Shown piece after piece: positions 4,096 to 13,688 of a DNA stretch of 64,000 bases. Below the pieces are notes generated by a model, which had not been told where the DNA came from, searched no databases, and saw nothing but the letters and a program-made list of their open reading frames with translations. Positions within the stretch are counted from its first letter, which is position 1, and every line of letters begins with the position of its first letter. Position numbers and translations under genes: made by a program. The DNA comes from Halolamina sediminis (GTDB taxonomy: Archaea; Halobacteriota; Halobacteria; Halobacteriales; Haloferacaceae), in assembly GCF_001282785.1 (NCBI RefSeq), contig NZ_CVUA01000001.1, forward strand, positions 372,001 through 436,000. The letters run 5' to 3'.

Positions 4096-4350
4096 CTACT
4101 GTTTGGCGAGTTGGTGTAGTCGGAAACACCGAGAAAGCCCCTGCTCGCTCCAGTCGGTGCGCTCGCTGCGCTCCTCGTCGGTCACTTCGTTCCCTCCTGT
4201 GGTGCTTGTGTCGCGCGCCTTCCCGGAGCGAGCAGCCCCTTTCAGTCCCGCCCGACCGCACAGCCCACAAACCTCCCCAGCCGACTCACTCGCTCACTCC
4301 GTTCGCTCGTTCGTCCCTCGCGCTCGGCTCGCGCACGGAGGCGCTCGCGC
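4096..4350 (+). repeat. Dispersed intergenic repeat, copy 1, with long stem
   Basis: This occupies most of the 426-base gap between pdaD and the DUF2298 gene. It is homologous, in inverted orientation, to 13455-13688. Shared blocks include CTACTGTTT at the left end, GAAAGCCCCTG, CAGCCCCTTTCAG, ACCTCCCCAGCCGACTC and CACGGAGGC at the right end. Bases 4141-4151 (CTGCTCGCTCC) pair perfectly with 4225-4235 (GGAGCGAGCAG), closing a 73-base loop. The same stem in the other copy has a different sequence but still pairs. The outer flanks GAAAG and CTTTC can also pair. Boundaries are approximate; function unknown. Confidence 0.7.
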
Positions 4351-4457
4351 TTCGCGCCACCGCACCGCCGGTAGCGAGGGGAGTGCGGGGAGAGCATCGA
4401 CGAAACCGCGAGCACCGTCCCAGAAAGACCAAAACGGTCCGCCTGTACGCCTACCCC

Positions 4458-13232: not shown

Positions 13233-13319
13233 CGTTGGCAACTGGAACAGCAACAGTAGCTCGCTCGTTGGCAACTGGAACAGCACCCGCGACAGCAACA
13301 GCAGCTCGGTCGTTGGCAC
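13233..13319 (+). repeat. Short direct repeats upstream of pgi
   Basis: The 20-mer CGTTGGCAACTGGAACAGCA occurs perfectly at 13233-13252 and 13266-13285, and its first eight bases recur at 13311. The units are 33 and 45 bases apart, with similar AGCTCG(C/G)T ends. The spacing is too short and the sequence too degenerate for CRISPR. Confidence 0.75.
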
Positions 13320-13333
13320 CTTGCGACCGCAGT

Positions 13334-13356
13334 GCGCCGGACACGAGGTCCGGCGC
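13334..13356. repeat. Perfect palindrome, 9-bp stem
   Basis: GCGCCGGAC (13334-13342) and GTCCGGCGC (13348-13356) pair perfectly across a five-base loop. It lies just outside the dispersed repeat. Confidence 0.7.
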
Positions 13357-13382
13357 TGCACCGAGTCCCCACCCCTCCCCCC

Positions 13383-13407
13383 GCGGCCGGCGACGGCTGC
13401 CGGCCGC
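13383..13407. repeat. Perfect palindrome, 9-bp stem
   Basis: GCGGCCGGC (13383-13391) and GCCGGCCGC (13399-13407) pair perfectly across a seven-base loop, at the right-hand edge of the dispersed repeat. Confidence 0.7.
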
Positions 13408-13454
13408 GAGGCGTCCACCGCCACCGCACCGCTACGGCGGTCGGCGCGCGACGT

Positions 13455-13688
13455 GAGTGCCTCCGTGCACGAACGAGCGCGCGAGGGACGAGCGACCGCA
13501 GGGAGCGAGTCGGCTGGGGAGGTCCGTGGGCTGTGCTGGCGGGCGGGGCTGAAAGGGGCTGCCCGCTGGACGACGGCGGCCGAAGTCAAGCACCGCAACG
13601 TAGTGAGGAGCGCAGCGAGGCCCCCGAGTCCAGCGGGCAGGGGCTTTCATGGTGTTGCTGGTCCAACCGTTCCCTCGAAAAACAGTAG
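13455..13688 (-). repeat. Dispersed intergenic repeat, copy 2 (inverted relative to copy 1)
   Basis: The reverse complement aligns along its whole length with 4096-4350. The long stem is GTCCAGCGGGCAG (13628-13640) with CTGCCCGCTGGAC (13559-13571), 13 perfect pairs closing a 56-base loop. Compared with copy 1, at least three stem pairs change on both sides (T:A to C:G and two C:G to G:C), so pairing is kept while sequence is not. The flanking AGCCCCT motifs are unchanged. Boundaries are approximate. Confidence 0.7.

Follow-up and report, generated by a model that had tools for sequence, protein, structure and literature searches.

A one-strand fold, probably acting as RNA, in an IS6-type MITE found across haloarchaea

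Two inverted repeat copies in Halolamina sediminis

The window analysed here, a 64-kb stretch at G000:C1:372001-436000 on the 2.84-Mb chromosome of Halolamina sediminis, carries two copies of a repeat in opposite orientations. Copy 1 lies between the genes for a pyruvoyl-dependent arginine decarboxylase and a DUF2298 membrane protein, and copy 2 between divergent phosphoglucose-isomerase and universal-stress-protein genes. Both had been noticed in a sequence-only reading of the window, at 4096-4350 and, as the reverse complement, at 13455-13688, and both are indeed present at these positions. As described there, the 11-bp stem of copy 1 (4141-4151 with 4225-4235; CTGCTCGCTCC/GGAGCGAGCAG) is perfect, as is the 13-bp stem of copy 2 (CTGCCCGCTGGAC/GTCCAGCGGGCAG), and the claim of at least three paired substitutions is borne out by swapped pairs at positions 5, 10, 11 and 13 of the stem; at position 12, an A.C mismatch is replaced by an A-T pair in copy 2. 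The AGCCCCT blocks are fixed in both copies, since they contain the invariant GAAAG/CTTTC outer stem together with an internal CCC/CCC loop.

Judging from other copies, the conserved fold occupies part of the interval originally delimited, namely 4133-4253 in copy 1 and 13541-13648 in copy 2, and lies on the strand opposite to the one read earlier. The folded strand, hereafter the putative RNA strand, is thus minus in copy 1 (5'-GGGCGGGACUGAAAGGGGC...GGGGCUUUC-3'), antisense to both flanking genes, and plus in copy 2. On the minus strand of copy 1, the outer stem P0 joins 4133-4137 (GAAAG on the plus strand) to 4239-4243 (CTTTC on the plus strand), the 11-bp stem corresponds to P1, which covaries family-wide, and a conserved leader, GGGCGGGA (TCCCGCCC on the plus strand), lies at 4246-4253 on the 5' side of the folded strand, its G tracts being conserved (alignment columns 1-8). 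The P0 arms of copy 2 are found on the plus strand at 13551-13555 (5' arm, GAAAG) and 13644-13648 (3' arm, CTTTC). A covariance model of the ~107-nt fold, R1, built from 44 sequences on the complementary strand, matched copy 1 with 99.3 bits (G000:376133-376253, E 1.8e-15) and copy 2 with 111.9 bits (G000:385541-385648, E 6.8e-18); R1 E-values are rough, and the matches reach 1e-20. The minimum free energy fold of copy 1 was better than those of 200 out of 200 shuffled sequences (z -4.2).

The 3' part of the interval, from ~4259 onwards in copy 1 and below ~13535 in copy 2, proved to be a different repeat module, which is also found without the stem. It covers 4259-4365 on the plus strand (CACAGCCCAC..CCTCCCCAGCCGACTC..CGCCACCGCA), where it is common to another palindromic repeat, and 13455-13535 on the minus strand (CACAGCCCAC..CACGGAGGC), and ~30 further stem-less matches were found in this genome by blastn. 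On the other side, the left flanks of copy 1 (4096-4132, plus strand) and copy 2 (13649-13688, minus strand) contain CTACTGTTT, which may be an eroded element end, the terminal inverted repeat (TIR) elsewhere being GGTAGTGTTCAGATAAG. A second palindromic repeat of mosaic structure, ~350-400 bp long and with CAGCAGCTCGATCGTTGGCACCTTGTGACCGCAC at one end, was observed at 13240-13455, its right half adjoining copy 2, and in loci L011-L030; it recurs in the majority of these loci of this genome and has the module CACAGCCCACACACCTCCCCAGCCGA in common with the window element.

The genome-wide search and the covariance model proposed in the sequence-only reading both returned additional copies. There are 46 matching pieces by blastn, which are not due to chance, and pattern searches detected 15 AGCCCCTTTCAG cores when up to 1 mismatch was allowed and 15 left ends when up to 2 were. 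With R1, 14 copies reached E<=1, and 12 of these had E-values below 1e-7; two minimal copies, GAAAGCCCCTGCCCCTTTCAG, have no inner hairpin. In L227 (the ortholog of copy 1 in genome G073) and in L012, L015, L016, L025 and L043, we observed a nested ~54-bp double hairpin (GACGAGAGCGAAGCTCTCGTC..TCAGAAATC..GATTTCTGA), which looks like a small mobile hairpin inserting into hairpins.

Fold architecture and distribution in Halobacteria

On the complement strand, the fold reads GGGYGGGA-CUGAAAG-GGG-[P1]-GAA-[P2]-loop-[P3]-[P4 hairpin]-GCAGCGA-...-[P1']-GGG-CUUUC, and thus consists of the outer stem, a GGG/GGG loop, a variable stem of 9-13 bp and more stems between fixed purine loops. In an alignment of 132 copies fitted to the model, standard pairs filled 96.7% of the pair cells, compared to 71.4% after shuffling, and two-sided changes were found in 896 cells, compared to 261; such changes affected 23 of the 30 pairs, and sliding the partner by 1-3 columns reduced the pairing to 26-46%. 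The outer-stem counts given below (93 sequences; 101 arms) are unfitted, and the count from pattern-selected sequences agrees with the fitted alignment. P0 itself is nearly invariant; in 4 of the 132 copies, an A-U pair has become G-C by a double change. The stems represent the variable part of the fold, and the unpaired positions are nearly fixed, with purines at 26 of the 30 conserved unpaired positions of the putative RNA strand. At an orthologous site compared between this genome and H. salifodinae, several P1 pairs differ by two-sided changes and the loops are largely unchanged; at a single orthologous site, gene conversion from another copy could also produce this result. The selection on structure that the sequence-only reading had suspected is therefore supported by the extra copies, which retain the pairing through two-sided changes; additional copies devoid of stem pairing, named there as contrary evidence, did not appear.

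Two further features of the fold were seen. The leader GGGYGGG and the GGG/GGG loop together provide four conserved G tracts (4236-4253 and 4138-4140 on the minus strand of the window), which could form a G-quadruplex in the K+-rich haloarchaeal cytoplasm, and a possible resemblance to kink-turns was noted by eye.

To assess the distribution of the family, we searched one genome per species with the exact pattern GAAAGCCCC-N66-96-GCCCCTTTCAG, which retrieved at least 120 stretches; among the matches listed, the named ones are nearly all from Halobacteria and represent many genera, with Haloarcula japonica, H. vallismortis, H. argentinensis and H. amylolytica among the species that matched. Matches from Desulfobacteraceae and Clostridia (L081, L100) are without the fold and were excluded as chance. 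R1 matched 291 of 344 sampled Halobacteria genomes, in 72 of 82 genera; the counts per genome in this census, up to 11 each, are lower bounds, and eight genomes searched more fully contained 15, 15, 17, 19, 43, 78, 80 and 92 copies. In a draw of 394 genomes across the phylum, 66 matched, all from the same order or family, and none outside the class Halobacteria. Haloarchaeal plasmid records with matches numbered 19. Carriage by phages or viruses was rejected, as the exact pattern had no match in 2.9 million viral contigs and one chance match in phages. Against Rfam, the window gave only a tRNA, no family reaching its gathering score, and eight loci gave only two sub-threshold chance matches to miRNAs; a description of the fold was not found in the open-access literature.

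Element ends, module layout and insertion history

In other genera, the fold lies inside a unit of ~205-370 bp with ends like GGTAGTGTTCAGATAAG. Both such ends, 17-bp TIRs, were identified in 32 copies. The 8-bp flanks were identical in 10 of these (mean of 0.38 and maximum of 3 in 2000 shuffles) and matched at 7 or more of the 8 positions in 15 (mean 0.96, maximum 5). The TIRs and 8-bp target site duplications (TSDs) in other genera thus identify the repeat as a mobile element. The copies with duplications measure 211-371 bp, which is too short for a transposase. An IS6-type transposase locus, L253 (PF13610), is bounded by near-identical ends, GGCGGTGTTCAGATAAG..CTTATCTGAACACTACC, and its transposase reading frame looks broken. 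The sequence-only reading had reported neither terminal repeats nor target duplications: this holds for the eroded copies of the window, since no TIR was found in the Halolamina copies with up to 4 mismatches allowed, and does not hold for the family in other genera. It had seen no transposase either; a PF13610 search of this genome found no IS6-type enzyme. The window copies would belong to the MITE by virtue of the common core.

The kind of element is already known, as follows from its IS6-type ends and duplications and from a MITE described in haloarchaea: haloarchaeal IS6-type elements have ends of ~13-22 bp, their duplications are mostly 8 bp long, and MITEHarch3 is listed in ISfinder under IS6 (PMC6807381). 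IS6-type MITEs of haloarchaea such as MITEHarch3 are, like the family described here, non-coding, with a GG-starting TIR of ~17 bp resembling that of ISH14-like IS and with an 8-bp target duplication, but elements of the present family bear one or two folds that are deeply conserved and confined to one strand, MITEHarch3 having been compared by description only. PATEs and SMRs of Haloquadratum are likewise short haloarchaeal repeats that contain palindromes, occur in many copies and have no transposase. However, the IS605-type PATEs have neither terminal inverted repeats nor target duplications, and SMRs have inverted terminal repeats unlike those of known transposons and no duplications (PMC3119063), whereas the family described here combines TIRs with TSDs, which contradicts identity with PATEs. 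The same two features contradict identity with REPINs, in which two inverted REP sequences are mobilised by RAYT transposases. These, too, are inverted hairpin pairs dispersed between genes, but consist of short simple hairpins tied to IS200-like transposases, in contrast to the ~107-nt modules found here.

In many intact elements, two divergent folds are present, separated by 26-43 bp. Among close opposite pairs, 26 of 27 are divergent, with the 5' ends facing each other, and none of the modules are in tandem. The stem arms of partner modules are no more alike than random ones (0.43 versus 0.52); thus, each module folds alone, and the possibility that the whole double element forms one long palindrome was rejected. 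At the centre of divergent pairs, for example in L129 and L106, TTTCAGTCCCACCC..GGGTGGGACTGAAA resembles, by eye, the two halves of haloarchaeal type I-B CRISPR repeats. The elements are located between genes in 108 of 114 cases, and the other six may involve over-called ORFs. Their orientation relative to the neighbouring genes is weakly biased (33 co-oriented with both neighbours, 19 opposed to both), and TATA-like or other promoter signals and T-runs beside the fold are not enriched above background.

Comparison with related species showed that the two window sites are polymorphic for the insertion, the core being absent from both in five Halolamina relatives. At the copy 1 site, the flanking genes are separated by 428 bp in this genome, 530 bp in G073 and 50-75 bp in five congeners. 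At the copy 2 site, the core is present in this genome and G073, four congeners have ~99-114 bp, and a further one (G191) has 308 bp that include part of a different repeat and no core. Given the lost TIRs and the lack of a PF13610 transposase, the Halolamina copies are old insertions, although the fold persists; mobility in this genome, as read from the relatives, would belong to the past.

The folding strand and its possible roles

Energy prediction alone cannot identify the folding strand because both strands fold well, although alifold values (-45.0 versus -36.5) favour the putative RNA strand. More informative are the departures from pairing in the outer stem. On the GAAAGCCCC strand of 93 sequences, these comprise 37 A.C and 7 G.T, that is, 37 G.U and 7 A.C on the complement; with more loci (101 non-redundant arms), the G.U:A.C ratio on the strand complementary to GAAAGCCCC was 37:8 (p 1.5e-5). 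A cruciform folds both strands alike, and palindrome correction and gene conversion also treat the strands equally, so that none of these predicts the asymmetry. Thus, of the two structures considered in the sequence-only reading, RNA or DNA cruciform, the data favour an RNA-like single strand rather than the cruciform. The asymmetry has the same direction in all gene contexts, with G.U:A.C of 11:3 where both neighbours are oriented with the putative RNA strand, 5:1 where both are against it and 10:3 in mixed contexts, counts that are small and none of which reverses. Transcription-linked mutation bias is therefore not supported as its cause; the excess of C-to-U over G-to-A at unpaired positions is also insufficient.

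We consider it likely, from the pattern of sequence change, that the fold acts as RNA. However, single-stranded DNA likewise tolerates G.T better than A.C, so that the asymmetry, which is expected from folding of either molecule, does not by itself prove RNA. The fold could accordingly be a single-stranded DNA structure that the element needs in order to move or replicate, as in integron attC sites and the ends of IS200/IS605 elements, and the lack of a promoter adjoining the fold and the nearly random gene orientation fit this possibility too. Nevertheless, we regard it, the main alternative to RNA, as unlikely: the ends and 8-bp TSDs indicate an IS6-type DDE transposase, for which no step involving a single-stranded DNA hairpin is known, the fold persists in Halolamina, where neither TIRs nor a transposase are recognisable, and visual inspection showed no attC-like boxes. 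An independent small-RNA gene family dispersed by duplication would explain the deep conservation of fold and loops, but it is improbable, given that the TIRs and TSDs mark the borders of a transposable unit, that the sites differ among species within one genus and that promoter-like and terminator-like signals beside the fold do not exceed the background; the missing TATA-like and T-run enrichment also led us to reject an intrinsic terminator. Least probable of all is that arms are kept complementary by palindrome correction (template switching or gene conversion) or as a DNA cruciform with no structural selection, since, although the repeat is palindromic, multi-copy and in places identical between copies (P4 of L032, L038 and L227), this predicts neither the 37:8 imbalance between G.T and A.C, on which it was rejected as sole cause, nor unpaired purines as the most conserved positions, nor partner modules that are unlike within one element.

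The reading that we prefer, with a probability of roughly 0.68, is that of an IS6-type MITE bearing a conserved fold that probably acts as RNA made by read-through transcription. The non-coding MITE, spread across the class of haloarchaea, would depend for its movement on IS6-type (ISH14-like) transposases acting in trans, and the window repeats would be its eroded copies. Each ~107-nt module, one or two per element, keeps its fold on one strand only. As no promoter-like or T-run signal adjoins the fold, the RNA would arise by read-through transcription, and a divergent pair would then supply one correctly oriented fold, whichever side transcription enters from. The fold might then affect transcript stability, processing or protein binding. 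The gene contexts in the window, with copy 1 antisense and copy 2 between divergent genes, match a simple 3'-UTR role poorly.

Bacterial ERIC/IRU and Correia (NEMIS) elements are intergenic and MITE-like, fold in transcripts and show compensatory stem changes, and ERIC and Correia/NEMIS are thought to influence the stability, processing or protein binding of transcripts. The haloarchaeal family is similarly intergenic and MITE-like with compensatory stem changes, folding in transcripts being a feature of ERIC and Correia, but its fold is larger, contains several fixed internal loops, occurs in most of an archaeal class and often forms a divergent pair. By analogy, an exact transcript role like that of ERIC and Correia/NEMIS might tentatively be considered. 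We would put forward with similar reserve that the transposon has spread an undescribed functional RNA through most of the class; this RNA would have a fixed three-dimensional core (the purine internal loops, GGG/GGG loop and G-rich leader), would act on many transcripts and would bind a protein of the host or of the element, the divergent layout securing a correct fold on either strand.

MITEs usually decay after insertion, whereas the non-coding interior of this one still shows its fold in detail, on one strand, throughout most of an archaeal class, in up to ~92 copies per genome and with no Rfam family covering it. If the fold is RNA, a transposon has supplied haloarchaea with a structured RNA family of very high abundance, whose binding partner and targets are open to a direct search. 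The divergent two-module layout also makes a clear prediction for read-through transcription. In this genome, the elements moreover appear to coincide with a switch in base composition: on the GAAAGCCCC strand, the intergenic DNA to the left appears G/T-rich and that to the right C/A-rich (for example, in L038, L044 and L045).
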